From Patiria pectinifera (Eukaryota > Echinodermata > Asteroidea > Valvatida > Asterinidae), in the NCBI GenBank assembly GCA_029964075.1, contig CM057149.1:35980900-36044899 (forward strand): a stretch of 64,000 nt of DNA, read 5' to 3'. Both the position numbers and the translations under genes were made by a program. Below are positions 10,400-57,027 of the stretch, in pieces. The notes below the pieces were generated by a model, which made no database searches, was not told where the DNA came from, and saw only the letters and a list, made by a program, of their open reading frames with translations. Within the stretch, counting starts at the first letter, position 1; every line of letters begins with the position of its first letter.

Positions 10400-13300
10400 T
10401 TAAAACCTAGGCTTCAGTTTAAGCTTGATATCGTTGGTTGCCTTGTAAACCAACTGCAATCTGGCAACCACTTTGTGGTCGGGATCCAACTCGATGTGAA
10501 ATCTTCTCAGAACTCGAGCTAGTATCACCTTCTCCTCATTCAGGGCAAAGTTCTGTCCAATGCAGTTCCTGAACAGTAAAACAATCAATTAATTAATAAG
10601 GATACATTCAAAGAAAACTCTCGTGATATAGAAATTGTCTTTGCAAGGTAAGTGTAACCGTTGAGGCAAATGGTTTTACCCTCCGGAGAGGACAGGATGT
10701 ACGTGTTCAACATAACCACCGAGGACCGACACACAAAGGGAGAACAACAGATCCTTTGAGTCCTCGGGACTTTGGCCTTTTGTTGGAAACGGTCCTCTGT
10801 AGTACGTTTGTGTGCTTAGTCTATGGGGGAGTGTACAGGGACAAAGGGAATTACAAAGCACTGTCCTCGAGAGTATAGTAAAACAAGAGTGTATGCGTGA
10901 GTTTTTTTCTGCGTTCAATAGGGGACGTTGAACAATAGAGGACAATAAGGTCCCCAATTCCCGAAGGTCCCCAATTTGGCAATGTGTACAAAACATATGG
11001 GAGGTCTTCCTAAAAAAGTTAGTACCAAAAAAGAGAGGGACAATAGGGGGTCCCCGGTTGCAGGCAAATACACAATTGTGCGTGTTTGTGTGTACATGTA
11101 CATAAAAAATACATATTCAAATCGTGAACCTTGAACAAGAGAGGACTATACGATTGACCAAAGGTCCACTTTTGAGGTGTGTGTACCAAACGTGGGAGGT
11201 CTTCAACAAAACTTAAAGTCTTCCTAAAAGTTAAAGAAAAAAACAAAAGAGGGACAATAGGGGGTCCACCACTGAGGGTGTTTACAAAGATATGTACGTG
11301 AATCGCATATACCCGAGGACAGACAGACAAAGGGAGAACATGTTCTCTGTTTGCTCCTGTACGGGATATCATATCAAGGAGTTAGCACAGTATTTTACAG
11401 ATACAGATACAGAGAATTCATCTGTTACTGAAAACGGTCCTCGCTCGTGAGTTTGTTTGCTTAGTCTATGTGAGAGTGTTATATAAAACAAATATTAAAA
11501 AAGACAATGCCTTGTCCTCGGGAGTTTTAACACGACTTCTTGTGTATGGGCGGGCGGGGGGAGAGGAGGGGAGGGGATGACGGGACAACACTTTTACCTT
11601 GGACCTGCCGAAAAAGGTACGTAGGCGAATGGATCAATGTTCACCGCATTTTCTGGCGCGAAACGATCTGGAATGAACTCCTGGAATAAATGACATTAAA
11701 TATTCATATTTTGTTATACAAATTGCGTTGTGTGCAAATAGCAGGCCACACGTCGACCAAATGTCAGAGTAAATTTAGGCTCATTCACATCAGTTAATAA
11801 GGACTTTACTTTAATACAGGTTACATCTACACCAGTTTACAGTTTACATCAGAGTGTAAATTGGTCGGATATTTTTTGGCTAGTCCCGTGGCCAGCCCAC
11901 AGTTTTCTTTGCACCTATCTCAATCACTGACTCACTTAATCACTGACTGTCACTTGGGTGCCGGGCAGTGCAGTCGTATTGGATTACCCCGTAATGCCAA
12001 TGAATAGGTTAATCGAATAGGTGTATAATTTTCCCCTTTCTTGTTTTACTAACCATGGAGTTCGGCCAAATCTCTGGATTGTGGTGCAGAGCATAAATAT
12101 TCAGGTCTACCATTGCGCCTTTAGGAATCAACCTGTCGTGGACCATGATGTCTTTCTCTGCAACAATACGCTGGATCATTGGTACTGGAGGGTAGAGTCG
12201 CATGGCTTCCTTGAGACACAGAATCAAGTAGTTGAACTTGCCAAGGTCCTCCCTAAATAGCAAGAGGCAAACACTCATGACTATTAGAGGTGTAGCAAAC
12301 AGTAAATTGCTACAGTTGCTCAACCTAGGCTTTTGTGGTAAAGACAGAGAGCTGAAACATGGCAAATGGCCCAAGTAGACTTACCATTGAATTACCTCTG
12401 ATTCCCTGCCTTCCATCACTTCATCAATTTCCTCCTGGACTTTCCTCTGATGTTCAGGATTGGTTGCCATGGCATACAGCATCCAGGTCAGGCTGCTAGC
12501 CGTGGTGTCGTGACCCTCGAAGAGAAAAGTGTCCACCTCGTTACGGATCTCTAGATCCGTCAGTCCCTTGCCGTCTTCGTCTCGAGCAGCTAGCAAGATA
12601 CCCAAGAAATCTTGGGGCTGGTCTTTAGATTTCACGGGCTCAGGATCGGTCTCTTTCTCTCTCTGAACAACAAACGATTGGAAATGCAGGTATAGCACAG
12701 TAATTAGCCCCTGGATTTCAGGATTGACTAAAAAATGTTTGCTTAACTTTTCAACAACAAAAAAGTAACAAAACTCTTTGTTAAACACTCTGTCCATCGG
12801 ACCCAAATAGAAAAAAGAACTTGCTGCATGCTTACGAGTTTGTCTCGCCGTTTTTTGATAACCTCAGCAGAGATCTGATGCACAAATTCCACATTTTTGG
12901 CGAAAATCTTTCCTACTGAACTCCTCTGGAATATAAAATCTGGATAAAGATAAGGAGTGCTACAGAAAAAGGAAAGAGGAGGGGGGGGGGGAAATGGATC
13001 GGTTAAAAATTCTGTTGTAATTGAAAGACAAAGGGCGAAACTCTACACGTAGCCAAGAAAGGAAAATACGCAACATCAAAGATTGCGTCACCAACGCATG
13101 AACATAAACATTCTTTTCCACAAAATTCAAAAACCTTTAGTCGCTTCCTAGATCAACTCATTAATTCTTGTTTTCTATCCTTCTCTTGATGTCATAAGTC
13201 TGTGAATGATGCACACATTTTTTCGAGGCTTGTGACGTTCTCTTCTTTTGTTATTACTGTTTGGAACAACTTTTTCTTGAAATGTCCCATAAGATTTGGA

Positions 13301-16300
13301 CAAGAAGACTTGATTTCAGATCTTTGGAGTTACTGTTATCCCAGGTAATCCCTTGTTCCACGTCATAACCTGTCCACCCATAAAAGCTGCTATACATGGC
13401 GGTTAAAAAAAAGGACACCGAACTGGCAGGACAAATTAATTAATGAAGACGTGCATGTAGCACTTTCAAAATCTAGGATATGAAAGCCCATGCATTAAGC
13501 TTTCTTTTAGTAAAAGAATCATTGAAAACACTTGTGTACTTTTCAAGTTAACGGAATGTTGAACATAAATACCGTTTGAAAAATCTGTCCACGGATCACA
13601 AGTGTTCTTTCAGCAAAACTAAAACAATTCTTATTGGGATGTTAGTGACTTGTTTTCGTTTTGCTGAAAGAACACTTACTTTTTTTGTGATCCGTGGACA
13701 GAAGTTTAAAACAATCTGTGCGTTCAAAATTCCGTAACTTGAAAATTACATGAGTGATTTGAATGATTCTTGTACTAAATGAGAGCTCATTGATTGGGCT
13801 TTCATATAGATTTTGAAAGTGCTACAGGCAAAACTTCATTCGAAAATTGGTCCTGTCATTTGGGTTCGTTTTTTTGCTCACCTTCTATAGCATAACGTCC
13901 AATTATTATGTTGCGACACACCAAGCTGAATCAAGTTACCAAAACGTCGTTTACCTGTTAAACATCATTCTATATGTTCTGACTTCATATATACACACAT
14001 TTATTAGTTAGTGTTTCCTCTCAGTGAAAGCCAATGTCTATTTTTGAGAAAAAAGCAGGACTATACTTACAAAACACGATCTCTGTTGGCGAGGATGATT
14101 GCATTCACCGCAGTAACGTACGGGTGACTGTCTCTGCAAACAAATCATGTAAGATTATGTTCCGTCATGGAAATCATGAAAATTACTGAAATCATAACTT
14201 ATGTTTCAATTTAAAAACAAAAAAAACAACCTGGAGCTCGGTTGTCCACTAATCTATTACACTGCCTACTGAGGCATGCCCTCTCTTCAAAATATTTTGA
14301 TGTGATAAAATGCATTGGCCAATGAAATTGCATTCTGGAGGTGATTCAAAATGTAATGGCCGAAATGTATTGGAGATTAGTTATTCATGAACACTTCCAA
14401 ATATATTCTGACATAATTTCTGACCAATCAAAATCGCAGACCCAGAATTGACATCCTTCCAAGTAAAATGGCATGCAGCGCGCTGTGCCGTCCTGAAAAG
14501 TGCTTTCTTATTGGCTGAACAGTTATTGCAGACTTGAATATTCAGTGCGTATATCGTCACGAAGCCTACGCAGAGGATCTGATTGGCCGACGATGAGTGT
14601 CAAAATAGTAAAAGACTCAGCCTCGCTTTCCTCCATTGAGCTGTTAAACAGATTTAGCCAGGGCATCTATACGAAGTAAGCTGGTCCCGGTAATAGCGAG
14701 GATGCATGATACACGTACCCGCTTATTTGGCAGCCGGATTCATAAGAACAAGCGCACTTGAGCAAGATATCCAACGTACACAGACTGACGTTCTTTGTCA
14801 CCACAAAACTTTCACCACTTGCTGCACATTCACTCATCTTGTTCTGTAGGCAACAGAATAAATACGGAAGAATATATTGGAGATATTAAATCCCATTTTA
14901 CATTAAAAACCTTAAAGGTGCTGATACCTACCATTCCGGCAAATGGTTAGGCCAAAATCTTGATGGAACTTTTTAGGAAGCTTGCGTTTACCCGAAATAA
15001 TGAGCTTTAAAATGGTTTGCAGAATTCGTACAAACTTCTGTTAATCTTGGGACCCAGTATTATGCTTAGAGACAACATGTACATAATGTTGATATTCACC
15101 AGCAAGATGTCGGTGGCTTTGTTGTAGATTGTCATGTAGGTCTTGAGGATATCAAAGTGGAATGCGTGGGTAATGAGGCGGCGATTGCGAAACCAGGTAT
15201 CTCCACTAGCAAGAAGCAGGCCATACCCCAGCCAAGGCAGAAGAAAACTGTAGCTAGGCATAAATTTCAAGAAAGGCTTCGGATCTGAAATGAATTGAAG
15301 TTTGGAGTTGGTGGATCATCAAAACCTGTTTCTAATTCGGCAACAAAAGAGGCAAGATGATCAAACGGTCGTAACAACTAATAAGAACCCAACAGGAAAA
15401 ACTGAGGGTTTTTGTTTTTGTTTCCTGGACTGCACTTGTGACTTCGAGTGCTTGTACATTTGGTGGACAGAACCGAGCAGTGCTATCGTATAGGATACCC
15501 CGTAATGCCAATGAATGGGCTAAATCTGGCCCAATGAAACAATTCAGATATATTGTAAGGCTTCCAGTGAATGGCCACTCTTGGACAAGCATTACTATAC
15601 AGAATTAGCCTTGCCTCAACTTGTTATCATCCACCTACCGCTTCCCTTCATAACTGCCCGCATTATATCGGGATGGTTGGCCACCACACTCATGCCCAAA
15701 GCTCCGTGGAACCAGCGGTAGCCGCGCGGGAATTTAGCTGTCATTTCCCGCCAAACTCTCAACCCTTCCTCGGAACCGGCTGCTCGTATCTTTGGATCTC
15801 TCATCGGGTTCTGCAAAACAGTAACAACAATGGTTAATTTGATATACATATCTTAAGGGATTCTCAGACTCAGACCTAACGTCTTCGACAATTCTAATGA
15901 TATACCAGGCCGGGTTCACATGCCACTTATAAGATTATGTCATGCGGCTCAGTGATCCGAATAGATGTTTTGTACATCAACAAGGTAAAACTGTAAAAAA
16001 AAAATGTCGAGTTGATTCAACCAAACAACCCCCCAAAAAAATTAATAATAATAAAAAAATCGGACTTAAAAAAATGGCAGTCCAACTTTTGCAAATCTGT
16101 GTCAAACACCAAGGGATATAGGCTACTTCTAGAATTAGAAGGCGCCTCTCGTTAGCTAACGAGAGGCGCCTTCTAATTCTAGAAGTGCACAGGATACCTC
16201 AGTGCTTTCACAATTAAACTGTCATGCTGACAGATCTACGGAATGGTCCACCTTGTGTAATGTGGTATAGTCTACTTTTGTCTTCAAAATTTAAATCAAA

Positions 16301-17038
16301 TACAAATCAATAGCTTATCGAGAAAATTGCACAAAGAATGAACGAGTGAATACTTTACAAAATATCGTACCAGCATAAAAAAAATAACTGCAGCAGGAAA
16401 GGTCAGGGGCAATGGAAGAAATTAATTGGACATGTAAATACAATTAGGCATAGGCCTAACACTAAATCTAAATATCAAGTTGACCAATATTGTCTGCATC
16501 ATGTAGATGTAGTTCTATAGTACACGAACATCCATGTGCATATCCAGCTAACCCCCTAAGGATTCATCAATCAATCAATCAATCAATCAACTTTGGACTT
16601 TATTTCCACATAAAAAAGGAATACCCTGCTAAATCCAACAGGGTCCAATGTTTACTTCCTGCTCAATCCAACAGAATCCAACAGTGCATAATTTTTAGTT
16701 GTCCCAGTGCTGGATCGCCAACAGAGTCCAACTTGGCGTTATTTATATTTATCTCTGAATAGGCCAATGTACATGTACGTTCATTTTTGTACAAGGGGTT
16801 ATGATACAGTTGGATCCTCTTGGATTCAGCAGGGTTAGGGCTCTTTGTCTGGTCTGCCGTAAAAACATCTCACCTGGTGAAGATTACCGTAAAGCCAGTG
16901 GTCTGGAAGTCCCGGCCAGTGTCTTATTAAAATTCCTCGAATTCTGCGCTTCGATTGAACATAACGCACCAAGACACAGACTGCATACGTCAATGCAGCA
17001 ACCAAACCAAGACCCAGAATAGACGCTAGCTCAGCCAT
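10400..17038 (-). CDS. Cytochrome P450, CYP4 clan (gene A)
   Basis: Ten exons, all GT-AG: 17038-16874, 15810-15639, 15284-15100, 14843-14719, 14133-14071, 12959-12836, 12662-12385, 12252-12054, 11680-11598, 10568-10400. They sum to 1563 bp, 520 residues plus TAA, a normal P450 length. Residues 1-28 form a membrane anchor ([20 protein letters not shown]). The I-helix carries the CYP4 signature [13 protein letters not shown] with EGHDTT at 327-332; the K-helix ExxR is E386-R389; the heme loop FSAGPRNCIG is 460-469 with Cys467 as the heme ligand. The Glu in FEGHDTT is the residue that can bind heme covalently in CYP4 enzymes. Expected role: NADPH-P450-reductase-dependent omega-hydroxylation of fatty acids or similar lipids in the ER. 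It is inverted relative to genes B and C. Exons 1, 4, 7, 8 and 10 are far closer to those genes than exons 2, 5, 6 and 9. Confidence 0.93.
10690..11480. repeat. Degenerate duplicated repeats in CYP4 A intron 9
   Basis: Two block types recur. Block one (about 10700-10830 and 11290-11470) has CCGAGGAC.GACA.ACAAAGGGAGAAC and later GTTTG.TTGCTTAGTCTATG. Block two (about 10912-11085 and 11120-11290) has ATGGGAGGTCTTC or GTGGGAGGTCTTC, then GAGGGACAATAGGGGGTCC. The order is block one, block two, block two, block one. It explains why this intron is much longer than intron 9 of genes B and C. Confidence 0.6.
13395..13885. mobile_element. Long foldback in CYP4 A intron 5
   Basis: Arms of over 200 bp read inward. 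Outer left: AGCACTTTCAAAATCTA near 13459; outer right: TAGATTTTGAAAGTGCT near 13808. Inner left: CTGTCCACGGATCACA near 13584; inner right: TGTGATCCGTGGACAG near 13686; between them AGTGTTCTTTCAGCAAAAC and GTTTTGCTGAAAGAACACT close on a loop of about 45 bp. Absent from the equivalent introns of genes B and C. Confidence 0.75.
16125..16186. repeat. 62-bp perfect palindrome without spacer
   Basis: The sequence from 16125 to 16186 equals its own reverse complement at all 62 positions; the centre is GTTAG|CTAAC at 16155/16156, and each arm includes AGAAGGCGCCTCTCG. It lies in intron 1 of CYP4 gene A. No flanking duplication is apparent. Confidence 0.95.
16564..16590. repeat. TCAA microsatellite
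   Basis: About six and a half perfect copies of TCAA in intron 1 of CYP4 gene A. Confidence 0.9.
16624..16834. mobile_element. Foldback element in CYP4 A intron 1
   Basis: CCCTGCTAAATCCAACAGGG (from 16624) is inverted with few mismatches at 16810-16834, which ends GGATTCAGCAGGG. The motif AATCCAACAG also repeats inside (near 16665 and 16675). It lies 40 bp from the donor of exon 1. Confidence 0.65.
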
Positions 17039-17068
17039 GTTGAGTTGTATACTTGTAGGTTATAATGC

Positions 17069-17766: not shown

Positions 17767-17769
17767 TAA

Positions 17770-18830: not shown

Positions 18831-18833
18831 GGG

Positions 18834-19962: not shown

Positions 19963-20336
19963 TAAGGCAAAAAAAAGGCTCCAGTTTCTTGTGTGCGCGC
20001 GCGTCGCCGTAGCCATGCGCGTCGGCAAAATTAAAACCTTTTTTTTTCAATACAAGATGATATCTCAGACCGCCAAACTCACTGGTTTGACTGGAATCCT
20101 GCTGCTGCACAATTCTAAGGTGTTTTTTTTATGTGGTTACGATCAAGTATAAGCTTTATGTGGCCTCTTTGGGTTCCTATTACATTTTGCACAAAATTTA
20201 GTCGGGCACCTTTTGCAGTCATCAGCCGACATTTTAATAAAAAAAAAACAAGTAAAAGAAAAAGAAAAAAAGCCGCGTCGCCGCACCACGTTTAGGGCAA
20301 GCTCCATACGAGAAACCGAAGATTTTTTTGGTCTAA
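19963..20336 (-). mobile_element. MITE family 1, copy 2
   Basis: Same family as 6813-7150 in inverted orientation: starts TAAGGC plus an A-run and GGCTCCAGTTTCTTG, and ends CGAGAAACCGAAGAT, a T-run and GGTCTA. The inner blocks TGACTGGAATCCTGCTGCTG and GGGCAAGCTCCATA match the other copies. It is more diverged than copies 1 and 3. Confidence 0.75.
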
Positions 20337-20339
20337 CCC

Positions 20340-22962: not shown

Positions 22963-23395
22963 CTAAAACAACCTGATACCGATTACGTCTTGGACGAGGT
23001 TCAGCAGGTCTCCACATTTCTCCAAAACGTCCGCTGTGCTGAAATCACTGTATTCCTGTCCACTTGTCTTTGAGTTCCCCTGCGGGTAGCGAGGTTTACT
23101 GAAGTCGCAGTTCAGTTGAACTAGTTCATGTGTTACCTCAGACACTCGGCTAGAAGTTACTTCCCTGTGTTGGCAAACTGCCCTAGCTAGAGATATAAGA
23201 TCGTTACAGTTCATGTCTGGACATCCGTCCAGACTGTACTGAGCTGCTTTGAGAGCAGTTTCTGCGGCCTGATGTACCTGGAAGGCTATCCACTGAGTTG
23301 GGACTGGTTCATGTTGGCTCGTCTGCTCGGCAACCTTAAGGTGTTCCTTGGCCTGACGGAACCATAGCCGTGCTTTTCGTGGATCTGGGGTCTCT
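22963..23395 (-). other. SACS: HEPN domain of sacsin
   Basis: Residues from PDPRKARLWFRQAKEHL to the C terminus match a HEPN fold: an opening amphipathic helix with AKEHLKVAE, a second helix with AFQVHQAAETALKAA, and the sacsin-type tail with NCDFSKPRYP. In sacsin this domain dimerises and binds nucleotides. It closes the protein immediately before the stop codon. Confidence 0.85.
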
Positions 23396-26300
23396 CTAAA
23401 GGACGGCGGCACAAAGTTACCGTATGATCTGTTTGATCTGGCGCTGGACCGACTACGGTAAAACGTCTCTTGATATCGTCTGGCTTCTTCCCTGTCCCTA
23501 TTGACCTCGGATTCCCAGTACGAATACTGATAAGAGCACCGCTGGTTGGGCTCACTACCCCTTTCATGCCTATCTATTTCTTGTTTGAGGAATTGGAAGG
23601 CCCTATTGGCACGTTCCTGCTGGCCTGGATTCTTATCTGGATGCCACTTGCGATAGAGACGGTACAAAACTATCTTGCGTTCCTCCGGTGGCATTCCAAA
23701 TACCTCGTCAACCTCCTTCTTAATCTGCTCGTCGTCTTTCTCCATGTCTTCTGGGAGAGTCCCTTCGAAAACCGCTGCTGGTGGCACATCAGATGTAGGT
23801 TCCCCAGTGAAAGGAACGACTGTCATGTCTGGTTGTTTTGTTGGTCGCAGGAATTTATAAAGTCTCGTCACTTTAACAATGATGGGCTCCTTTCCTCCAA
23901 CATCGATTTTGTATCGTCTCGATAAGTTGACTGTCTCATCACCCTTGTCAATCTGTTCAAGGATTTTGGCATAGATTTGCTCAGTAGCACCATCCGCCGG
24001 TGTTTCTGACGGTACCCTTTCACTGGTTCCCAAGGCAAGGTCGTCACTATCATCATACTGCAACTGGTCTCCTTCGTCAATGTCTCTTTCATAACCTACT
24101 ATCTCATCTACGTGGAAACGGTTGTAGGGGTCATGATCAAGCAGGTGATGAATATCTCTTGGTATTAGAGTACCCGGGCTGTGCTCTTCCGGTTGGATAG
24201 TACTTGTTGTGATATCGTACTCAGGGATGTCAGACCGGGAAATAACTGTATTCATCTCAGCAAGATTCTGACAGTCCAAAGCGTGCGCACAGTGACGTAC
24301 ATGTTCAGGATTTAGTAGATGTCCTAGGAGGGCATTGCAACTGTCTGCAATTTGCCCAAAAGTCAAACTCTTCTGCCGAGAGAGCGAGGAGTGTTCCAGA
24401 TATATTATGCCCGCCAATTTGTCAAAATACGCTTCCCGCGAGTGCATGTGCTCTGCAATTTTATGTCCATTATTGTCGTATAAGCCAAGCTTCAATTCTA
24501 TTTTGCAGACGAAATTGTCGAATTCCTGGAGTTGTGTTATGTGCTCTTTGATGTCAGCACTCAGTTGTTTGTTTTCGAGCTGATGTTTTATAAGTCTGAG
24601 CAACACACGAGTCATCTCCTCTGATTTCACCTTTCGCTTGACGCCTTCCAGATACTCACAGTGCTGTCCAGCGGGGCAGTCTTGATTGGTGTCTAACGGC
24701 TTCTCATTCCATTCATCCCCAAGATTCTTAGGTCGGAGGGACTCTGGAAGAAGTTTAATGAGACGTATTTCGTCCTCAACCAGAAATCCGCACTGCTTTA
24801 CGGGAAAGATGAATTCCCTATCTGTTGGTGCAAGGTTATATTGCCCCATTTTGTTAGGGTCAGCATAATACAGATCAGTCGACCTCCTCAAGACGTATTC
24901 TGTATTAGGTAAATACAGCTCGGATGCGGAAAACGTGGATTGACCGCTCTCATTGTGCAACAGTAGGACAAGCATTGCTCTAACAGCACCCACGGCTGTC
25001 TTCTGCTCGTTTGGACCTAGACGTTGATTGCCACACTCCACTTTCATTGACGCCAGTACTCCTGCCAGCTGGTCAAAGGAACATGAATCGTTGGCTCCAA
25101 GCAGTCTGAGGACAGTACCAAACTTTGCCAATTCTCGTGGTACTTTGTACAAGTACGGTCGCAAAGACGGCTCGAGATTTCTGTCCATTTCAAATACCAA
25201 CTTATCGGCTCTCACCAATACACTTCCTTCTTCCACAAGACATACTGGAGTGCACTTCAACCGTTTAATGTCCTCACCATACTCATCCACGTTTAGACCT
25301 TCCAAGTATCCCAAAATCTTGCCCATGACTTCCTTTAACGTCTTTCTCTGTTCTGAAGGCAGTGTATCTTCCTTGTGAATCGCACTCTTTTTTCCCATCA
25401 CCCCACAAATGTTTTGTGTGTGCAAAACAACTTTATCAACAACCACCTTTTTAATTCCCAGGCAACCATGAACAGTAACACCCTCATGTATTTCCTCGTT
25501 TCTCGGTATGGCAGAAGAAGGTAGTATCATACAAACTGACCATACAAGCCCCAAATGTTCCTCCGACGCTGATCCTTGGTATGCAATGAATGCAAGCGCT
25601 TGGTTGTTGTCACTGCTCGTCAAAGAACATGCAGGATGGATGTCAAGCAGTTCTTTCTCGATTGGCACGGACTGAACGAACCTGATCGTTGCGATTTTCT
25701 TCAGGAAGTTTGGATAGCGGAGCTTTTTCCTGACATTCAGTTTATTTGTCAGAAGACGAGAGTCGCGACACAATGTTTCTCTCTGTTTGTTGTCTTGGAC
25801 TTTACCCGACCTTTTTTCTACCTCCTGTGCAAACTGAAGGAAGTCGGCTTGAGTTACTTTTAAATGGAAACCAATTCTCTTCAGGAAATCTTTCAAGGTT
25901 TCCATGGATTCTGGCAGTAACTTGATTGGGTCAATCAACGCTTTGAAGACAGAATTATCACCGTTGTAAAAAAACCTTGCTTGTCGTGGTATGTCCGTTG
26001 TATCTGGAATGAACGCAATATGGGAAAGACGCTCGAGAATTTCGTTTTCGTCCGGTTCTGAAGCTTGGTGTAGGATGTTATCTCTGATGAATTCGACGTG
26101 CTGTAATTGACCCTCTTTACTGAGCAATAGGAAACTTGGAAGTATGTACTTGAGATACATGCCAGCTTGTGTGATAGGCGTTACTCCTAGCTGTTGGTAG
26201 ATCACATTCAAGCTACGATTGGGCTCCAATATAGCACAGCACATGTTGTCCATCCAGGTCTTGGCTTCATTCATCAACTTTCCGTAGCCATCTGCAGTGT

Positions 26301-37180: not shown

Positions 37181-37183
37181 TAT

Positions 37184-42753: not shown

Positions 42754-42811
42754 GTTATGTTTACACCCACCATTATTATCTACAGAAACTATATTACTAC
42801 AACAGGCCAAC

Positions 42812-45800
42812 ATGGCTGAGCTAGCGTCTATTCTGAGTCTTGGCTTGGTTGCAGCATTAGCGTATGCAGTCTGTGTCTTGGTGCGTTATGTTCAATCACA
42901 GCGCAGAATTCGAGGAATTTTAATAAAACACTGGCCGGGACTGCCAGACCACTGGTTTTACGGTAATCTTCACCAGGTGAGAGATTCGTTTCATGTTAAC
43001 CCAGACAGAATAGTACAGTTTTGTAAGCGAGATTTACGTCAAGTACGAGCAGTGCCATCGTGATCGTATATAGGATTACCCTGCTACGCTAATGAATGGG
43101 CTAAATTTGGCTTATTGCGTAGAGCAAGGTACCGTACAGTATAGTTGAAACTCATGCTGGATCAATAATTTGAATATAATTTTATGAGCTTTGAGAACAG
43201 GTTTACCAGGCTTTGCTTATTTTGTTGATGTGAATGTAACCTTTTTAGTGAAAACTTTGAAAATGCACCTTTGAATGCTAATGTAAATTTCCATATCCAT
43301 GAGCAAAAGTGTGATGTCATTTTAGACAGAAACCTCAATATTACAGCTATTCAGCACCATCATTCGCCAGCATTTTGGATATTGTTTTTTTTTTTGGCGG
43401 GGGGCGGGGGAGTGATTAGTTGTTGAGTACTAGTAGCAGTTTGTTAAACCATGATCACTGCAACAGTGCCCTCAGTTGTTAGGAAATTTATGGGGGGGGG
43501 GAATAAGTAACGAAAACTTAGTGCACTTTTCAAATAAAATTAAACGAAAAGGAACGTCATATAGTTTTCATACATGAAGAGTAGAAAGTTAGAATGCGTA
43601 CCTTAGAAAAAATTATTGCACAAACCATGGGAATGATCCTATTAGTGTTCTTGGGAACCGAAGCATATCTTTTCTGAATTTATAGTAAAATGCTTACAAT
43701 GTTAACTAAAATTAATTGTCAAGCTAATTATCTTTACGCTTTTGTAGCACCCTATGAATGATCCCAAGGTTCGAGAAGCCGGTTCCGAGGAAGAGTTGAA
43801 ATTGTGGCGGGAAATGGATGCTAAATTCCCCCGTGGATTTCGCTGGTTTCACGGGCCTCTGGCTATTGGTGTGACAGCCAACCATCCTGATATAATGCGG
43901 GCAGTAATGAAGGGGAGAGGTAGGTATATAGACCACGTTGCGGCCATCTTGATTTTTCCCCATTCAAATCAACTTAAACGAGTTGAGGCTGGAAGGAAAA
44001 ATAGTCTGGTTCCCTTTCCTTTTACACAAAGTCTATAGCAATAGGTAACAGATAGGTGGAATGTGACCATGTAGAGTGTCATTATAGGTGACGTGACACG
44101 ATCTCATTTATATCAAATCAACGATTCCTGAAGCAGCTGTCGTGGCATAGTTTAAAGGTAGAGTAAACCATTTTGAAGCTATCCAAAAAGTAACCGACCG
44201 AGTTACATCAATTGTGAAAAGGTTAATCAAAATATGGCTCGGCAACTTTATCGAAATCTTTTTCTCGAAATATACAGCAAGCACAGGGCATCAGGTTAGT
44301 TCTTATAAGCATTCGTCTTTAGATTTTGAGCACTTTCGTCAACTCGAATGAAAATAAATCTTCAAATTACAAGTATAGGAACCTATGAAATCACACGGAA
44401 ACGGTATACATGTACCACTATTTAACACCCTTGCTCATGGTGAAGATAGGACTAGTACCCTAGTACCCTGAGAAATATTCCGCCTGATATGAAAGTCATT
44501 CGAAAGAAAACTATCATTGAAAATGGTTTAAGGAATATGTGCCGGTGGATGCAGTTTTTTTAAACTGAGTAACGAGACCCCAGAAAGTGCATAGACGTTT
44601 TCTCTGTTTTCTCAATCATGCACTGAGCTCAAACTTCAACAGATTTTGAGCAATTTTGTCGAATCAAAGTTGAGGACAACAAATTGTAGAAAAACCAAGG
44701 GATCCAACTTACCTTTTAATCACACATGTTTGATTTGTTATACGCAAACATTTTCCTGAACAATTTTGTTTAGAAACCGTATTGTTTTATAATCTACCCA
44801 TCTTTCCTTCAAATCCCTACAGATCCCAAGCCTACTACGGCATTAAGTTCTGGTTACCGTTTTCTTCTGCCTTGGCTGGGGTATGGTCTGCTTCTTGCTA
44901 GTGGAGATACCTGGTTTCGTAATCGCCGCCTCATTACCCACGCATTCCACTTTGATATCCTCAAGACCTACATGACAATCTACAACAAAGCTACCGACAT
45001 CTTGCTGGTGAATATCAACATGTGTAATGTGTATATAGAATCATTTTACGCAATAGCGCGGGGAACGATATTAATCATATACTGCTAAAGTTGTTGCTAG
45101 CATCTCAAGATTAATAAAACATTGTACGAATTCTGCAAGCCATTTTAAACTTATTTCAGGTAAATACTGCCAAAAGGACTTTTATCCAGATACATATACC
45201 CATTCATCTAGCAGGGATAAACATTTTGAAGGGTTTCTGTTCTTCCGAATTGATTCTGTTGCCTACAGAACAAGATGAGTGAATGTGCAGCAAGTGGTGA
45301 AAGTTTTGTGGTGACAAAGAACGTCAGTCTGTGTACGTTGGATATCTTGCTCAAGTGCGCTTTTTCTTATGAATCCGGCTGCCAAATAAGCGGGTAAGCT
45401 TATGTCTGTCGACATACCATCTCGTTCTTATTTATAATTATGTAGGAAAAGAAACTTTTTGTTTGCTATTACAATTTTGGTATCCCTTCCCGAATGGAGT
45501 TTCATCGGTCGATGTGAATGCATCACTTCAAAATAATTATTCCAAAGTGATGGCAACTTCTCTAGATTGAATATTTTACCTCACTTGATGTTTATTGCTG
45601 AGTTCTATTTTTCGCAATTATACTAACTTTATTTATATTGAAAGTGTTGTAACATAGTCTTCAATTGTTTTTTTTTATGTGCAGAGACAGTCACCCATAT
45701 GTTACTGCGATGAATGCAATCACTCTTGCAAACAGAGAGCGAGTATTGTAAGTGCTTGTTATAACTTTTAATAATAATCTCAAAACACTTTGCTCTGCTT

Positions 45801-47882
45801 TGACCTTTGTTTTTTAATTATTTGCATGATTTGTCAATCAAACACGATCATGAATACATAGAATAAAGTTTAATAGTATAAGAGCTTTAATATTTCACCA
45901 TGTGTGAGATCAAATCCTGTTGTCCCATGCACAACGGAACACAAAATGGTGTATACGTTTTTCTTTCTTCTATTAAGTGAGTTTCACTCTTATAGCCATG
46001 GGTCTTATTCACGAGTCGGCCATATTGAATTGAAAGTGAGGTAAAATCTTATTGGAAGATAATTATCTTTTTGGAACTTGCGAAGAGAAATGAAAGCAAG
46101 TTAATTCCTCATTAATTCCAGTCTGCTTCAATGAATAATTGTAAATTTGTAATTTTAAATTCGATGTTTAAAGCCAGATTTTTAAAAAAAAGACAGTAAA
46201 ATAAGGCTGCATTGCATAAGTAGTCTGGCGCCATCCAATCGAACAGTTAACACTTTAAATGAAATACGTTCAGTGAACTCGACAAAAATGCCCAACTCGT
46301 GAATAAGGCCCATCATCTTTCAGCTTCAAAACACTGATGCAGTTCTTTGTTTACCTACATCGTTTGTCTTCCCTTCTCTAGCAATCCTTTTCTTCATCCA
46401 GATTTCATATTTCAGAGGACTGCAGTTGGGAAAACATTTCTCAAAAATGTAGACTTTGTGCACCAGATCGCCGATAAGGTTGTCAAAGAACGGCGAGACA
46501 AACTGGTAAGCAAAGTTGTCTTTGAAAGTTCTTTTTTCTTCTTCTTCGTGTGTTCGATGGGTTGAATGTAATTTGGACATGAAATTTTTTTTGAAAAGGT
46601 GAGCAAATATTTTGGATTCAAGTCACACATTTTGTGTCTTCCAATCGGTTGTTGTTAGAAAGAGAAAGAGGCCGATCCTGAGCCCGTGAAATCTAAAGAC
46701 CAGCCCCTGGATTTCTTGGGCATCTTGCTAGCTGCCCGAGACGAAGACGGCAAGGGACTGACGGATCTAGAGATCCGTAACGAGGTGGACACTTTTCTCT
46801 TCGAGGGTCACGACACCACGGCTAGCAGCCTGACCTGGATGCTGTATGCCATGGCAACCAATCCTGAACATCAGAAGAAAGTCCAGGAGGAAATTGATGA
46901 AGTGATGGAAGGCAGGGAATCAGAGGTAATTCAATGGTAAGTCTACTTTGGCAATTTCCGGTGTTTCAGCCCTCTGTCCTTATCACAAAAGCCTACATGT
47001 GTAGTAGGTTGAGCAACTGCATTAATTTACTGCTTGCTACTAGTCGTGAGCGTTTGCCTCTTACTATTCTAGGGAGGACCTTGGCAAGTTCAACTACTTG
47101 ATTCTGTGTCTCAAGGAAGCCATGCGACTCTACCCTCCGGTACCAGTGATCCAGCGTATTGTTGCAGAGAAAGATATCATGGTCCACGACAGGTTGATTC
47201 CTAAAGGCGCGTTGGTAAATTTGAACATCTACGCCCTCCACCACAATCCAGAGATTTGGCCAAATTCCATGGTAAGTCACGAAAATATTGTACCCAAAAG
47301 AGGCGTTTTACACTCACTCCATCTTGTGAATTTTAAATCACAATCTACAGTTCTGTTTTAACAACCAGGTCATTACAACTTACTTATACTTATATTTATT
47401 CCTTTCCATGTATACAGGAGTTCATACCGGATCGTTTCACACCGGAAAATACCAGGAATATGGATCCCTTCGCCTACTTGCCATTTTCGGCAGGTCCAAG
47501 GTAACTGTGTCCCCCTCTCCCACATAAAAACGATATAGCCACACTCCCCGAGGGTAAAGCGTTGATGATTTTCATGTTACAAGAATTTCTAAGAGGGAGA
47601 CCTTCCATATACATTTTGTATCCTTATTAATTCATTTTGTATCCTTATTAATTAATAATAAATGTTCTGTTGAATTGAATTGAATTGAATTAATTGATTG
47701 TTTTACTGTTCAGGAACTGCATTGGACAGAACTTTGCCCTGAATGAGGAGAAGGTGATACTAGCTCGAGTTCTGAGAAGATTTCACATCGAGTTGGATCC
47801 CGACCACAAAGTGGTTGCCAGATTGCAGTTGGTTTACAAGGCAAACAACGACATCAAGCTTAAACTGAAACCTAGGTTTTAA
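42812..47882 (+). CDS. Cytochrome P450, CYP4 clan (gene B)
   Basis: Ten GT-AG exons: 42812-42976, 43748-43919, 44823-45007, 45269-45393, 45685-45747, 46382-46505, 46659-46936, 47073-47271, 47418-47500, 47714-47882. They total 1563 bp, 520 residues and TAA, and every exon length equals that of genes A and C. N-terminal anchor [25 protein letters not shown] hinge near 41-45; I-helix [14 protein letters not shown]-helix KEAMR; heme loop FSAGPRNCIG with Cys467. Expected reaction: reductase-dependent monooxygenation of lipid-like substrates on the cytosolic ER face. It lies in the first of two tandem duplicated units, and a MITE sits in intron 5. No frame damage was seen. CYP4V or CYP4F type cannot be decided by eye. 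Confidence 0.94.
46000..46311. mobile_element. MITE in CYP4 B intron 5, absent from C
   Basis: GGGTCTTATTCACGAGTCGG on the left is inverted as CCCAACTCGTGAATAAGGCC on the right (few mismatches). In gene C intron 5 the surrounding sequence runs straight through (TGAGATCTATCTTTCAACTT), so that locus is an empty site. The target duplication is at most 2-3 bp. Confidence 0.8.
47660..47692. repeat. TTGAA microsatellite in CYP4 B intron 9
   Basis: About five copies of TTGAA just before the exon 10 acceptor; gene C has no expansion at this place. Confidence 0.8.
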
Positions 47883-49148: not shown

Positions 49149-49179
<31 letters not shown>

Positions 49180-49630: not shown

Positions 49631-49634
49631 TTGC

Positions 49635-50489: not shown

Positions 50490-50551
50490 CACGCCACTGC
50501 AGCGAGGTTAAATAGGTAGGCCCTGGTTGGAACGAGATAAAGTGCTTCAAC

Positions 50552-50564
50552 TTGCGCATGCGCA
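50552..50564. promoter_or_regulatory. NRF1-like palindrome upstream of CYP4 gene C
   Basis: TTGCGCATGCGCA, retained from unit B, about 310 bp before the ATG. It is closer to the gene than in unit B. Confidence 0.4.
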
Positions 50565-50792
50565 CAGAACGTAACTGGCGATTTTGAACTCAAGGCCAAG
50601 GCCGTGTCATGCGGGCTATATGTCACGCAGTCGTATTTGTCTAAACCTTGACCAGAATTAGCTGAAATGACTTTGGACTTGTGGAAATTTGGCATGATGC
50701 ATTGTTTGAGCCAGGCAAAAGGCGCTGTGGATTAACTGAACACACTTGCTCGGCTGTTTGAGTTTACATCGTATCGGACTTTTAAATGTTTT

Positions 50793-50830
50793 GCTGAAAA
50801 TCACAGTAGCACAGTACGAAAGGCGGAATT
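50793..50830 (+). promoter_or_regulatory. Conserved promoter-proximal block, CYP4 gene C
   Basis: CTGAAAATCAC, AGTAGCACAGTACGAAA and GGCGGA, 45-80 bp before the ATG. GTTTACATCGTATCGGA just upstream is also shared with gene B. Confidence 0.5.
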
Positions 50831-50874
50831 TATTACACCATTATCTACACTAAACTACACAAGTACAAGCCAAC

Positions 50875-53800
50875 ATGGTGGAGCTAGCGTCCATTGTGAG
50901 TCTTGGTTTGGTTGCTGCATTGACGTATGCAGTCTGTGTCTTGGTGCGTATGGTTCAATCGCAGCGCAGAATTAGAGGAATTTTAATAAAACACTGGCCG
51001 GGACTTCCAGACCATTGGCTTTACGGTAATCTTCACCAGGTGAGAGAATCGTTACATGGTGATCATAAAGTTTTGTAAGCGAGTTTTACGACCTGTAGTC
51101 TGAGAGATATTTGAAGACATTATTCGTCAGATCATTGTTGTTTTTGTCCCAGAACGAAACCAACCTAGATTGCGCCAGACTGATTCACTGATTGACTGTC
51201 ACGTGTGAACCTGGCAGTGCTTTCGTATAGGATTACCCTGCTACGCCAATGAATGGGCTAGATTTGGCTTATTGTATAGAACAAGGTAGTGGAAACTCAT
51301 GCTGTATCAATCATTTTAACCCTAAAAGGGCCGGATTATTTTGACCATCTCTCAGCCGGGGGTCCGCCCCCCCCCCCCCCCAAAGATCTCGGCCATCGAG
51401 TGACGAAAAATTTTGAAACTCTGTGCATGCATTTAGCAACTCTTCATAAACATACCCAAGAAATTTCATGACTAAAGGTCAAAAGATTTTGGAATTATGG
51501 CTGATTAATTATTCATATGTGCGAATGGTAATTCTGGTCTGTGTACACGACGTATATGGGAAAATGAAGTTTTCACGGCGCGTAGCGCCGGAAAACTTTT
51601 CGCTACGCGGCAACCCGTGGTCCGATTTTTATGTTTTTGGTATCAAAAGATGCGCAAAGCTCGAGGCTAAAAAGTCATAACAGCTCGGGTCGCGAAAAAA
51701 AAATTGCAAGGCTATCGCGGAAAAAGTTGAAGGGGGAGGGGGGTCGGATTCCGCCCGGCCCTTTTAGGGTTAATATAATTTTATGAGCTTTGAGAACAGC
51801 TTTACTAGGCTTTCCTTGTTTTGTTTATGTAAATGTAACTTTTTAGCGCAAACCTTGAAAACGAACATATGATACATCCCATTGTCATTGTTTGTATTGC
51901 CAAGGATATTTTGTGGCTTTTGGGTGTTCATGCTAATGAGAATTCCATATCCATGATGTCATTTTAGACAGAAACCTCAATACAGCTATTTCAGCACCAC
52001 AATTTGCCAGAATTTTGGACTTTTTGCGGCTGTAATTTTTTTTTTTGGGGGGGGGGGGATTCGTGCTTGGGTCAGTAGTAGCAGTAAAACCATAAGCAGA
52101 TGTTTTTAATGAGTACATTTTTGAGGTTCACATTTTGAACAGAAACCACCTCAAGTGAAAAGTTTCTTCCTGAAAATGACATCACAGCAACATCACCCTC
52201 AGTTGTCAGGAAAAGCATGGAACATAAAACTAATGTTTAAAGAAGACTTAGTGCACTTTTCAAAATAAAACTAACCAAAAAGGAACGTCGAATGGTTTTC
52301 ATACATGAAATGTAGAATGCTATATGAAATGCGTCCCCAGGAAAAAAATTATCGCATAAACCCTTTAGGCCAAAAAAAAAAGTCTCCGGTTTCTGGTATG
52401 GAGCTTGCCCAAAAAGTGGTACGGCGACGCGGCTTTTTTTTTACCTGTTCTTTTTTTTCTTTCCTTTTTTTTGGCTTCAAATGTCGGCTAATGACTGCAA
52501 ATGGTGCCCGACTAAACTTAGTGCAAATATATGGGAGTCCAGAGAGGCCACATAAAGCTTATTCTCGATCATAACCCCATCTAAAAACACGTTACAATTG
52601 TGCAGCAGCATGATTCCAGTCAAACCAGTGAGTTTGGCGGTTTTGAGACATCATCTTGTATTGAAAAAAAAAAACGTTTTCATTTTGCCGACGCGCATGG
52701 CTACGGCGACGCGCGCGCATACCAGAAACCGGAGACTTTTTTTTTGGCCTTAGCTGGTATAGGAATTTTCACATTAGTGTTCTTGGGAACCGAAGCTATA
52801 TATATCTTTTTTTCCTTTCGGATTTATAATTAAAATACTTTACAGTAAAATCTAAAATTATCCTACTTGTCAAGCTTATTTTCTTCACGCTTTTGTAGCA
52901 CCCTATGAGAGATCCAAAGGTTCGACAAACCGGTTCCGAGGAAGAGCTGAAATTGTGGCGGGAAATGGATGCCAAATTCCCGCGTGGTTTCCGCTGGTTT
53001 CAAGGACCTCTGGCTATGGGAGTGACAGCCAATCATCCTGATATAATGCGGGCAGTTATGAAGGGGAGAGGTAGGTATATAGAACATTATCATGTTGCGG
53101 CCATCTTGATTTTCTCCCATTGAAATCAACTTAACCAAAGCGAGGCTGGAAGGAAAAAGAGTCTGGTTCCTTTTTGCACAAACACATTGTCACTCAGTAC
53201 TGTTATTGGATACAGGGAACACGACTGAAATGGTGGCAGCATGATAAAGGTCTATAGCAATAGGTCACAGATAGGTGGAATGTGACTTCACAATGTGTGA
53301 CGTGACACGATCTAATATTTATCAAATCAACGGTCCCTTAAGCCGCTGTCGTGGCATAGTTTAAAGGTAGTGCAGACCATTGAAGCTATCCCAAATGTAA
53401 CCGACCGAATAACATCAATTGTGAAAAGCTTCTCAAAATATGGCTCGGCAACTTTGTAATCGAAATCTGTTTTCTCGAAATACAGCGTACACAGAACGAA
53501 AAGTTCATCAGGTTAAGTTGTTAAGCATCCGTCTTAAGATTTTGAACACTTTTGTCGGTTCAAATGCAAAGAAATTCACAAATTACAAATGGTATACTAG
53601 GCTATATACAAGTAGAGAAAGCAAGTAGGAACCTGTGAAATCACACGGAAATGGTACACCATTATCTAACGAGAACAACCTTGCTCACAGAGTACACATG
53701 ATCATGTCTACTCTGTGAGCAATGTTGGTACCAAATACGGTGTGAAAAAAATTCCGCCTGATATGGAGTCATTCGGAAGAAAACTATCATTGAAAATGGT

Positions 53801-56800
53801 TCAAGGAATATGTGCCAGCGATGCAGTTTTTGTTAATTGCGTAACGAGCCCCCAAAAAGTGCATACATTTTCTCTGTTTTCTCAAAATATATCATGCACT
53901 GAGCTCAAACTTCAACAGATTTTAAGCAATTTTGTCGAATCGAAGATGAGGACAACAAATTGTGGAAAAATCAAAGGATCCTACTTACCTTTAAATCACA
54001 ATTTGTTGATTTATTATACGCAATTTTTTTTTCCTTTAACTGAATAAATTTGATTAGAAACCATATTTTTTGTTATACCCATCGTTCCTTCAAATGCCAA
54101 CAGATCCCAAGCCTACTAAGGCACTCGGTTCTGGTTACCGTTTTCTTCTGCCTTGGCTGGGCTATGGTCTGCTTCTTGCTAGTGGAGATACCTGGTTTCG
54201 TAATCGCCGCCTCATTACCCACGCATTCCACTTTGATATCCTCAAGACCTACATGACAATCTACAACAAAGCTACCGACATCTTGCTGGTGAATATCAAC
54301 ATTTATACATATTTAGAATAATTTTACGCAGTGGCGCGGGGAACAGTGTTAACCAAAACCGCTAAACTTGATGCTAGCGTCTCAAGATTAATCAAACACT
54401 GTGCGAATTCTGCAAGCCATTTAAAAACTTAATTCAGGTAAATACTTCCAAAAAGAGTTTCATCAAGATATACATACTATTCATCTGGATGGTAGGGATC
54501 AACATGTGAAGGTTTTCTGTCTCCAACATATTCTTCCGTATTGACTCTGTTGCCTACAGAACAAGATGAGTGAATGTGCAGCAAGTGGTGAAAGTTTTGT
54601 GGTGACAAAGAACGTCAGTCTGTGTACGTTGGATATCTTGCTCAAGTGCGCTTTTTCTTATGAATCCGGCTGCCAAATAAGCGGGTAAGCTTATGTCAGT
54701 CAATATAGCATCTCATGTGTATTGATAATTATGTTGGAAAAGACTTTTTTCGGCTATTACTTTTCTTTTATGCTTTCCTGCATGGAGTTTAATCGGTCGA
54801 TGTGAATGTATCACTTCAAAATATTCGAAAGTGATGGCAACTCCTCTAGGCAGTGGGCAATAATTTACTTCGCTGGGCAATTATTACAAAGCGCTAGTTT
54901 ATAACTTTATAATTTATCTCATCCGCCAAGCAAGGCTTATATTATTCAAATGACTTTATTTATTTACATTGAAAGTCCTGTAACGTAGCTTTCAATTTTT
55001 TGTTATGTGCAGAGACAGTCACCCGTATGTTACTGCGGTGAATGCAATTGCTCTTGCCGGTAGAGAGCGAATATTGTAAGTCCTTGTAATCACTTTTAAT
55101 AATACTCCCAAAACAGTTTGCTCTGCTCAGACCTTTTTTAAATTCGAGTAGGAATTGCCAATCAAAATATGATCATGAATAATTAGAATTAAGTTTAATA
55201 GTGAAAAGAAGCTTTAATATTTCACCATGTGTGAGATCAAATCCTATTGTCACATGCATAACATAATACCAAATGGAGTAACATCTATAATGATTGAAAA
55301 ATAGAATTAGCTGTTGCAAACTGCTTACCAACCAAAAGGACCTATGGTATAAATGCAAAAAAATAGTTAGTGGCCTGACGTTTCAACCCTAGCAGAGTCT
55401 TTCTCGAAGGCTTTTTAGCCCTCAAGAAAGACTCTGCTAGGGTCGAAACGTCAGGCCACTATCTATAATGATTGGTACACGTTTTTATTTCTTTTACTAC
55501 ATTCAGTGAGTTTCACTTTGAGATCTATCTTTCAACTTCAAAATACTGATCCAGTTCCTTGTTTACCTACTTCTCTTTCTCTAGCAATCCTATTCTTCAT
55601 CCAGATTTCATATATCATAGGACTGCAGCTGGGAAAACATTTCTCAAAAATGTAGACTTTGTTCACCAGATCGCCGATAAGGTGATCAAAGAACGGCGAG
55701 ACAAACTGGTAAGCAAAGTTGTCTTTAAAAGTTTGTTTTTCTTCTTGTGTTCGATGAGCTGAATATAATTTTGATAGTATTTTCTTTTAAAAGGCGAGCA
55801 AACATTTTTGGTTCAATCAAGACATCCTTTGTTACTTCCAATCGTTTGTTAGAAAGAGAAAGAGACCGATCCTGAGCCCGTGAAATCTAAAGACCAGCCC
55901 CTGGATTTCTTGGGCATCTTGCTAGCTGCCCGAGACGAAGACGGCAAGGGACTGACGGATCTAGAGATCCGTAACGAGGTGGACACTTTTCTCTTCGAGG
56001 GTCACGACACCACGGCTAGTAGCCTGACCTGGATGCTGTATGCCATGGCAACAAATCCTGAACATCAGAGGAAAGTCCAGGAGGAAATTGATGAAGTGAT
56101 GGAAGGCAGGGAATCAGAGGTAATTCGATGGTAAGTCTACTTGGGCCATTTGCCGTGTTTCAGCTCTCTGTCCTTACCACAAAAGACTAGGTTGAGCAAC
56201 TGTAGCAATTTACTGCTTGCTACACCTCTAACAGCCATGAGTGTTTGCCTCTTGCTATTCTAGGGAGGACCTTGGCAAGTTCAACTACTTGATTCTGTGT
56301 CTCAAGGAAGCCATGCGACTCTACCCTCCGGTACCAATGATCCAGCGTATTGTTGCAGAGAAAGACATCATGGTCCACGACAGGTTGATTCCTAAGGGCG
56401 CGTTGGTAAATTTGAACATCTACTCTCTCCACCACAATCCAGAGATTTGGCCAAATTCCATGGTAAGTCACGAAAATATTGTACCCAAACAGGCGTTTTA
56501 CACTCACTCCATCTTGTGAATTAAAAATTACACTAGATAGTTTTGTTTCACCACGTCATTTCATACTTCATTTCCATTTATGCAGGAGTTCATACCAGAT
56601 CGTTTCACACCGGAAAATACCAAGAATATGGATCCCTTCGCTTACTTGCCATTTTCGGCAGGTCCAAGGTAAATGATTGATGGAGTTGTGTCCCTTAATC
56701 CCCCCCCCCCCAACAAACACACATCAGCAGATATTATAGCCACCCTCCCTTCGTGGTAAAGTGTTGATGATTTTTTTTTGTCACGAGAGTTTCTAAGAGA

Positions 56801-57027
56801 GAGACCGGCCATGTACATTTTGTACCCTTACTAATTCATTGATTGTTTTACTGTTCAGGAACTGCATTGGACAGAACTTTGCCCTGAATGAGGAGAAGGT
56901 GATACTAGCTCGAGTTCTGAGAAGATTTCACATCGAGTTGGATCCCGACCACAAAGTGGCCGCCAGATTGCAGTTGGTTTACAAGGCAACCAACGATATC
57001 AAGCTTAAACTGAAAGCTAGGTTTTGA
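50875..57027 (+). CDS. Cytochrome P450, CYP4 clan (gene C)
   Basis: Ten GT-AG exons: 50875-51039, 52899-53070, 54104-54288, 54560-54684, 55013-55075, 55585-55708, 55853-56130, 56264-56462, 56586-56668, 56859-57027. They total 520 residues plus a TGA stop. Membrane anchor [21 protein letters not shown]-helix [13 protein letters not shown], ExxR in KEAMR, heme loop FSAGPRNCIG with Cys467. It differs from gene B by a few dozen residues at most, including [34 protein letters not shown] and the final KARF. Intron 1 (1.86 kb) is enlarged by a piggyBac-type MITE and a family 1 MITE; intron 5 holds a retroposed hairpin. The same biochemical role as gene B is expected; substrate differences cannot be judged. 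Intact. Confidence 0.94.
51320..51769. mobile_element. piggyBac-type MITE in CYP4 C intron 1
   Basis: TTAA target copies at 51316-51319 and 51770-51773 bracket exact 15-bp inverted ends CCCTAAAAGGGCCGG and CCGGCCCTTTTAGGG. The CCCT start and TTAA duplication are characteristic of piggyBac. Gene B has the empty locus, reading AATTTGAATATAATTTT near 43170 where C has TTAA plus insert plus TTAATATAATTTT. It is 450 bp and noncoding. Confidence 0.92.
52365..52752 (+). mobile_element. MITE family 1, copy 3 (best preserved)
   Basis: Ends TTAGGCC, an A-run, GTCTCCGGTTTCTGGTATG and CATACCAGAAACCGGAGAC, a T-run, GGCCTTA. It lies in intron 1 of gene C; gene B has no insert between AACCATGGGAATGATCC and its neighbours near 43625. 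The duplicated target is probably TA or TTA. Confidence 0.85.
55297..55460 (-). mobile_element. Retroposed element with terminal hairpin
   Basis: The 14-bp sequence ATCTATAATGATTG occurs at both 55283-55296 and 55461-55474, a long target duplication of the kind made by target-primed reverse transcription. The insert, read on the minus strand, opens with AGTGGCCTGACGTTTCGACC and a long hairpin (55368-55461, about 37 paired bases per arm) and ends with a T-rich tail. It is absent from gene B intron 5. Confidence 0.7.

Follow-up and report, generated by a model that had tools for sequence, protein, structure and literature searches.

Why should neighboring copies of a cytochrome P450 gene stay almost identical in some exons when other exons, and nearly all of their introns, have drifted far apart? 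The question is raised by a 64,000-nucleotide stretch of the Patiria pectinifera genome (the window; C21 35,980,900-36,044,899, in an assembly of 613.5 Mb), which holds three CYP4-like genes, here called A, B and C. We consider it very probable that recurrent ectopic gene conversion among these genes and a fourth locus, E, produced the pattern, and that diverged introns halted the conversion. All comparisons were made within this one genome.

Gene models were built from a three-way alignment of A, B and C together with splice signals. A lies on the reverse strand, B and C on the forward strand; each has ten exons with matching phases, GT-AG introns and a 1563-bp coding sequence (CDS) of 520 codons for amino acids, with an intact reading frame. 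B matches the Pfam p450 domain (E = 1.5e-107), and in a comparison with solved structures only, its best relative is CYP4B1 (E = 5e-114). The heme-cysteine motif PFSAGPRNCIGQ and the ExxR motif, as KEAMR, are present in all three genes. The I-helix signature EVDTFxFEGHDTT, which we take to be a mark of family 4, corresponds to a 13-residue stretch that aligned with EVDTFMFEGHDTT in the CYP4B1 comparison. A, B and C are thus read from their sequences as CYP4-like members of cytochrome P450 family 4, with predicted enzyme activity. Across the genome, eight near copies cover exons 7-8: A, B, C, three second copies (A2, B2 and C2), a further copy A3, and E. The last lies at 37.04-37.07 Mb, about 1 Mb from the window, and has a third intron of 22 kb (seen at C21:37041552-37063667), its remaining introns being short. 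Reading frames are intact in A, B, C, B2, C2 and E.

Divergence was calculated feature by feature from a joint alignment of the eight sequences, and introns were also aligned pairwise. In comparisons of A with B and C, exons 2, 5, 6 and 9 show 16-24% differing bases, but exon 4 shows 0.8%, exon 7 2.5-2.9% and exon 10 1.8-3.0%. A sequence-only reading of this DNA had proposed patchwork conversion among three inverted paralogues from by-eye counts, and its A-B counts agree with ours (25/124 in exon 6, 7/278 in exon 7 and 1/125 in exon 4); its figure of 15-20% for exons 5, 6 and 9 between A and C rightly marked them as divergent but fell slightly short of the actual 18-24%. Apart from intron 7, the introns of A hardly align with those of B and C, with an apparent difference of 28-55% in the joint alignment and, under free pairwise alignment, 12-27% mismatch plus many gap positions. 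Intron 7 of A and C differs at 6 of 132 positions plus one gap position when aligned pairwise, in agreement with the earlier count of about 6 in 133 plus one indel, and at 7/132 in the joint alignment (about 5%), versus 40/137 in intron 6 and 52/109 in intron 8. Between any two of A, C, C2 and E, 6-9 of the 132-133 positions of this intron differ. The observation that it is more alike than exons 5, 6 and 9 holds for A and C; between A and B the intron is not homogenised.

Tract limits were taken from a two-state hidden Markov model (HMM) run on the A-B and A-C alignments, which delimits Tracts 0 to 4 (Table 1). In both alignments the low-divergence tract of exon 3 begins at base 37, exactly where a break after 36 scrambled bases had been noticed by eye, and the A-B tract through exon 7 ends at base 138 of exon 8. 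The HMM also marked a stretch in each of exons 2, 5 and 8 of the A-B alignment; at 23-43 columns, these three are not counted as tracts. Outside all tracts, 1319 of 2952 columns differ between A and B and 1520 of 3427 between A and C. Tract 0, at about 6-7% from B and C, is perhaps of greater age. The low divergence of exons 4, 7 and 10 recurs in the block that carries A2, B2 and C2 and again in E. Patchwork conversion itself is retained from the sequence-only reading as well supported, along with its arguments from intron 7 (for A and C) and from the sharp break in exon 3, but the family is wider than three genes, and inverted pairing is unnecessary because B and C share one orientation.

We compared silent sites between a homogenised class (exons 3b, 4, 7, 8a and 10) and a divergent class (2, 3a, 5, 6, 8b and 9), parts a and b being portions of one exon; the classes were defined after viewing the alignment, with exon 1 in neither, and the Fisher values are thus descriptive. 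A3 was omitted from the silent-site, permutation, run, outgroup and tree tests. Synonymous divergence by exon class, a comparison suggested beforehand, shows a sharp contrast: A and B differ at 10/182 silent sites in the homogenised class versus 56/120 in the divergent class (Fisher P = 2.5e-17). The corresponding counts are 12/182 versus 58/121 for A-C, 12/181 versus 47/120 for A-E, 6/183 versus 21/122 for B-C and 10/182 versus 20/121 for B-E; the contrast is non-significant for C-E (10/182 versus 14/122, P = 0.08). A class-free test permuted codon order and took as its statistic the longest run of identical codons among codons for the same amino acid. The longest runs were 81 codons for A-B (P = 0.00035), 56 for A-C (P = 0.024), 56 for A-E (P = 0.033) and 84 for B-C (P = 0.046), with non-significant results for B-E (P = 0.2) and C-E (P = 0.096). 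In an approximately unbiased (AU) test, the divergent exons (2, 3a, 5, 6 and 9) reject the homogenised-segment tree (P = 5.5e-05). The branch leading to B, C and E measures 0.126 in the divergent exons, and the one separating A from the rest 0.009 in the homogenised segments.

A shorter tract distinguishes A from its second copy. Exon 8 of A2 and of A3 departs from that of A at 13 sites, 11 of them silent, and at all 13 it carries the base found in B and B2. C matches at 11 of these sites, C2 at 10 and E at 9, which would single out B as the donor. A-type sequence stands on both sides of the tract in A2 (site 12179 upstream and intron 8 downstream), and the clustering of A-A2 differences in exon 8 has P = 5e-05 under codon-order permutation. 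Within the tract, the window's A is about as far from B as in the adjoining exon 9, and the simplest reading is therefore that it is unconverted. Both B and B2 have B-type sequence in exon 8, as would be expected of an unchanged donor. The stretch in A2 has the form of a near-textbook tract of putative B-to-A conversion. If A and A2 are alleles, it is heterozygous in this animal.

Table 1. CYP4-like genes, low-divergence tracts and divergent exons, in window coordinates; fractions are differing positions over positions compared.
Feature	Position	Strand	Details
CYP4-like gene A	10400-17038	-	ten exons, 520 aa, frame intact
Exons 1-10 of A	17038-16874, 15810-15639, 15284-15100, 14843-14719, 14133-14071, 12959-12836, 12662-12385, 12252-12054, 11680-11598, 10568-10400	-	
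CYP4-like gene B	42812-47882	+	ten exons, 520 aa, frame intact; Pfam p450
CYP4-like gene C	50875-57027	+	ten exons, 520 aa, frame intact
Tract 0, exon 1 of A	16868-17042	-	partners B 42808-42982, C 50881-51045; A-B 10/165, A-C 12/165, B-C 16/165
Tract 1, exon 3 of A from base 37 + 14 bp of intron 3	15086-15248	-	partners B 44859-45021, C 54140-54302; A-B 3/163 columns, A-C 4/163
Tract 2, exon 4 of A + 29 bp (A-B) or 40 bp (A-C) of intron 3	14716-14872	-	partners B 45240-45396, C 54520-54687; A-B 3/157, A-C 4/168
Tract 3, exon 7 + intron 7 + first two thirds of exon 8 of A	12115-12683	-	partners B 46639-47210, C 55855-56395; A-C 15/541, A-B 32/564; intron 7 close to C and E, not B
Tract 4, exon 10 of A + 26 bp of intron 9	10400-10594	-	partners B 47688-47882, C 56832-57014; A-B 3/195 columns
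B-type tract in exon 8 of A2 (A in the window keeps the diverged version)	12060-12150, outer limits 12052-12178	-	at least 91, at most 127 bp
Divergent exon 2 of A	15639-15810	-	A-B 35/172, A-C 34/172
Divergent exon 5 of A	14071-14133	-	A-B 10/63, A-C 13/63
Divergent exon 6 of A	12836-12959	-	A-B 25/124, A-C 30/124
Divergent exon 9 of A	11598-11680	-	A-B 15/83, A-C 15/83

According to the mechanism that we propose, A, B, C and E would be old duplicates whose introns and some of whose exons have drifted since duplication; silent divergence between A and B or C is about 0.7 in the drifted exons. Short ectopic conversion events would keep recopying exons 4 and 10, the part of exon 3 that starts at base 37, and exon 7 together with early exon 8. 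Among A, C and E these events would take in intron 7 as well, and exon 1 was perhaps converted earlier. Since conversion would need near-identity, stretches that are similar would keep being converted, and homogenised islands would persist where similarity is high. Diverged introns, rather than selection, would end the tracts, and the small exons 5, 6 and 9, isolated between such introns, would escape. The tracts include intron sequence, namely the first 14 bp of intron 3, the 29-40 bp that precede exon 4, the 26 bp that precede exon 10 and, between A and C, the whole of intron 7; the template was thus genomic DNA, and conversion mediated by complementary DNA (cDNA) is ruled out. A points the opposite way from B and C, with a 13-kb sacsin-like frame in between, and E is 1 Mb off, yet exons 4, 7 and 10 are still shared, which argues that distance and orientation matter little. 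Exon length alone is not decisive, since exon 2 (172 bp) is divergent and exon 4 (125 bp) is homogenised.

Conversion could also have proceeded in this way with its boundaries set by selection that keeps substrate-contact exons distinct, a variant compatible with the mechanism above that we nevertheless regard as rather unlikely. By alignment with CYP4B1, we placed the segments on the P450 fold. Divergent exons 5 and 6 presumably run from the F helix to the G helix, and bases 1-36 of exon 3 form the start of the B-C loop; the divergence of these segments in A versus B, C and E is what such selection would leave. By the same assignment, the I helix, the C-terminal beta region, the residues that follow ExxR (KEAMR) and most of the B-C loop (the part before WFRNRR) presumably fall in the homogenised segments, and all of these can contact substrate in P450s. 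Conversely, exons 2 and 9 and the end of exon 8 are not known as classical substrate-contact regions, and they are about equally divergent. The sequence-only reading had split the genes into converted parts with the I helix, K helix and C-terminal heme side and divergent parts with the substrate-contacting B-C loop and F-G regions; the divergence is borne out for exons 5 and 6 of A, but the split fits neither the converted segments, which also hold contact regions, most of the B-C loop included, nor the non-contact divergent exons. In the divergent exons, the class-average ratio of nonsynonymous to silent divergence (dN/dS) spans 0.2-0.7 (about 0.2 for A-B, about 0.65 for C-E) and exceeds 1 in no pair of paralogues. 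Single small segments do reach 1 (exon 5 of C-E, 4/47 versus 1/16), and selection for difference is not supported by the class averages. A functional partition is suggestive for the F-G region only.

Several observations weigh against conversion. A run test of the Sawyer/GENECONV type on within-family silent polymorphic sites, the test first put forward for this locus, yielded no globally significant fragment in any of the six pairs among A, B, C and E (lowest P = 0.08), nor in any of the 21 pairs once A2, B2 and C2 were added (lowest P = 0.22); A-C, A-A2, A2-B and A2-B2 fell below 0.05 when uncorrected (four pairs, both sets). The failure may arise because the tracts are homogenised in every copy, leaving few polymorphic sites. 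GENECONV-type significance is one customary kind of evidence for conversion, not a defining one, and it is weak where all copies have been homogenised. The homogenised segments, for their part, fail to reject the divergent-exon tree (AU P = 0.097), and in the tree built from them a distant copy, O1a, falls beside C2. Intron 7 of B is not homogenised (A-B 16/124, B-C 15/125 and B-E 14/125, or 11-13%); it stands apart from A, C and E, and intron-7 homogenisation is therefore limited to those three. The allelic status of A2, B2 and C2 rests on assembly structure. Finally, at silent sites the homogenised class is slightly less diverged from outgroup copies than the divergent class (0.62-0.70 versus 0.70-0.91; P < 0.05 in 8 of 12 comparisons).

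The three outgroups, O1a and O1b (both near 27.5 Mb) and O2 (31.2 Mb), are more distant copies from this chromosome; their codons were taken from tblastn hits each confined to one exon. Their lower silent divergence in the homogenised class, chiefly in exon 7, together with the low nonsynonymous divergence (dN) of the homogenised segments (7/661 for A-B), is what would be expected if purifying selection on protein and silent sites kept exons 3b, 4, 7, 8a and 10 alike with no exchange at all. We judge this explanation very improbable. Exon 4 differs between A and O1a at 24 of 26 silent sites and exon 10 at 28 of 35, comparable to exon 2 (32/38) and exon 9 (14/19), and exon 4 differs between A and O2 at 25/25. 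Two of the exons that are nearly identical within the family are thus near silent saturation against the outgroups, and constraint alone is insufficient as an explanation. The contrast between classes is at most about 1.3-fold to the outgroups versus about 8-fold between A and B. Selection on coding sequence also leaves aside that intron 7 resembles the exons in its A-C similarity, and that the exon-8 tract of A2 carries B bases throughout, mostly at silent positions. Silent divergence between A and O1a is lower in exon 3b (21/35) and exon 7 (22/52), where some added constraint is likely, though not as the chief cause. The converted exons have a third-position GC of 0.58-0.60, versus 0.45-0.51 in the divergent ones; the outgroups are alike in this respect (O1a 0.69/0.53, O1b 0.67/0.57 and O2 0.66/0.62), and we make no claim of GC-biased conversion.

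Within exon 7, the I helix carries a wider signal. Codons 305-348 were picked after viewing the data, and the comparison was limited to codons for the same amino acid. There, B is identical to O1a at 33 of 39 codons versus 109 of 243 elsewhere, to O1b at 32/37 versus 104/197, and to O2 at 28/38 versus 66/166. A scan of all positions gave P = 0.0001 for B-O1a, 0.00075 for B-O1b, 0.015 for B-O2 and 0.063 for A-O2. By comparison, between 7/25 and 14/27 of these codons match B in seven CYP4-like stretches of exon 7 located on other chromosomes; they show no excess identity, which counts against purifying selection without exchange. The signal reflects either older conversion with copies as far as 8.5 Mb off or extra silent constraint on the I helix of this group. 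A tentative extension, which we think will probably not hold, is that exon 7 with its I-helix segment is a hub through which this chromosome's CYP4 copies have been converted, namely A, B, C and E (within 1.1 Mb) and the copies about 4.7 and 8.5 Mb off, and not for those of other chromosomes. If it were a hub, a catalytic module would be held in common across a dispersed family as the access region evolved gene by gene.

Mosaic genes might also be built by unequal crossing-over or repeated re-duplication instead of non-reciprocal conversion, and the clustered duplicates and complex copy structure of the region are the setting in which this would occur. However, the four or five short tracts of A alternate with diverged sequence and would demand a double crossover for each tract. 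A is moreover opposite in orientation to B and C, with the sacsin-like frame between, and crossovers between inverted copies invert the interval between them; such an origin has scarcely any chance of being correct. It is just as hard to credit an artefact of assembly or polishing in which one copy was written from another copy's reads, as the gap-bounded second block, the composite A3 and the frame-breaking indels in A2 exon 7 and A3 might suggest, against a window without N, intact frames in six copies, the recurrence of low divergence in exons 4, 7 and 10 in the second block and in E, and introns so different that reads are unlikely to have been misplaced across them.

A2, B2 and C2 sit in an inverted block that mirrors the window, with matching pieces of at least 400 bp at 89-100% identity. 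The block, read in part, occupies C21:36248800-36530327, between 500-N gaps at 36,248,300-36,248,799 and 36,530,328-36,530,827. Over 515 bp, sequence just before the first gap is 93% identical, inverted, to sequence just after it, and for three pieces sampled beyond the window the match to the block is 92-98%. A3 begins past the second gap (C21:36530828 onward). It equals A over about 1.9 kb (one difference, 16718-14815), passes through an error-rich and indel-rich stretch, and then follows A2 from 12410 to 4816, where most blocks of 500 columns have 0-2 differences, the exception being 5-7 at 11259-9762; near 2854-2354 it is about 8% from both A and A2. Farther out, this third contig matches at 91% where the inverted block matches at 98%. 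We therefore rejected A3 as an independent copy and treat it as a composite at a contig edge. Exon 7 of A2 (C21:36507546-36507821) is two bases shorter than in the other copies, which breaks the frame; A3, otherwise identical in exon 7, is not shortened, so the deletion in A2 may be an assembly error. On this structure, A2, B2 and C2 are probably alleles, that is, unmerged haplotypes of A, B and C, and a third sequence besides the window and the inverted block is also present. Intron 7 differs at 7/132 positions between C and C2, the same as between C and A; if the second copies are alleles, then two alleles of C differ in this intron as much as C and A do.

Other features of the window were recorded alongside the genes. 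Between A and B, on the reverse strand, an open frame of 4313 codons (22963-35904) encodes sacsin (SACS) domains and a C-terminal HEPN domain. A 3-kb piece of it has ten matching places including itself, one at 94% (in the inverted block), six at 85-87% and two at 67%. Inverted repeats lie upstream in the window at 1003-1336 (113-bp arms at 94%), in intron 5 of A at 13407-13875 (nested arms) and in intron 1 of A at 16104-16207 (a hairpin without a loop), and they resemble short fold-back elements. Three places, 6815-7150, 19963-20336 and 52365-52752, share a dispersed repeat about 340-390 bp long with 80-86% identity, one copy being inside intron 1 of C, and past gene C a tandem array (59368-60144) contains 2.6 copies of a 290-bp unit.

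Three things come together at this one locus: conversion on the scale of exons, near-saturation at silent sites when two of those exons are compared with outgroups, and a tract in which two presumed alleles are unlike. Whole-CDS trees, dating and dN/dS of such P450 clusters mix histories, and within-family run tests can miss tracts that have been homogenised in all copies. Interlocus gene conversion is a known process, also in P450s, and it has been suggested for CYP4; no such locus is named among the matches listed for P450 or CYP4 gene conversion, tract length or echinoderm CYP4. Its reported extent varies. A median of 7-8% of codon substitutions was ascribed to interlocus conversion among 164 teleost duplicates (PMC10503786), and among bee P450s GENECONV detected no conversion (PMC8670302). 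The CYP6B genes of Helicoverpa zea, as cited in PMC7830528, are arthropod P450 duplicates, with conversion polar toward the 5′ end, whereas here it forms a patchwork along the gene. Conversion was suggested among CYP4 copies of the gastropod Cyphoma gibbosum, where there may be fewer loci than indicated (PMC3022543); here introns, tract ends and outgroups are at hand. The GOT1 paralogues of the copepod Tigriopus californicus are alike in that conversion is described as mostly restricted to exons where an intron is no longer alignable, with islands of divergence persisting, although GOT1 belongs to another gene family and several populations were compared (PMC3728101). The regional conversion of mammalian CYP1A1 and CYP1A2 shows a similar exon-wise contrast, with some exons of these P450 paralogues homogenised and others strongly diverged, and it is discussed in relation to substrate recognition sites (PMC3199271). 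That system comprises two head-to-head genes, last converted in the simian line before the Catarrhini-Platyrrhini split (PMC3199271). In the present case there are four loci, an intron is homogenised as well, and one tract is not the same in the two presumed alleles.

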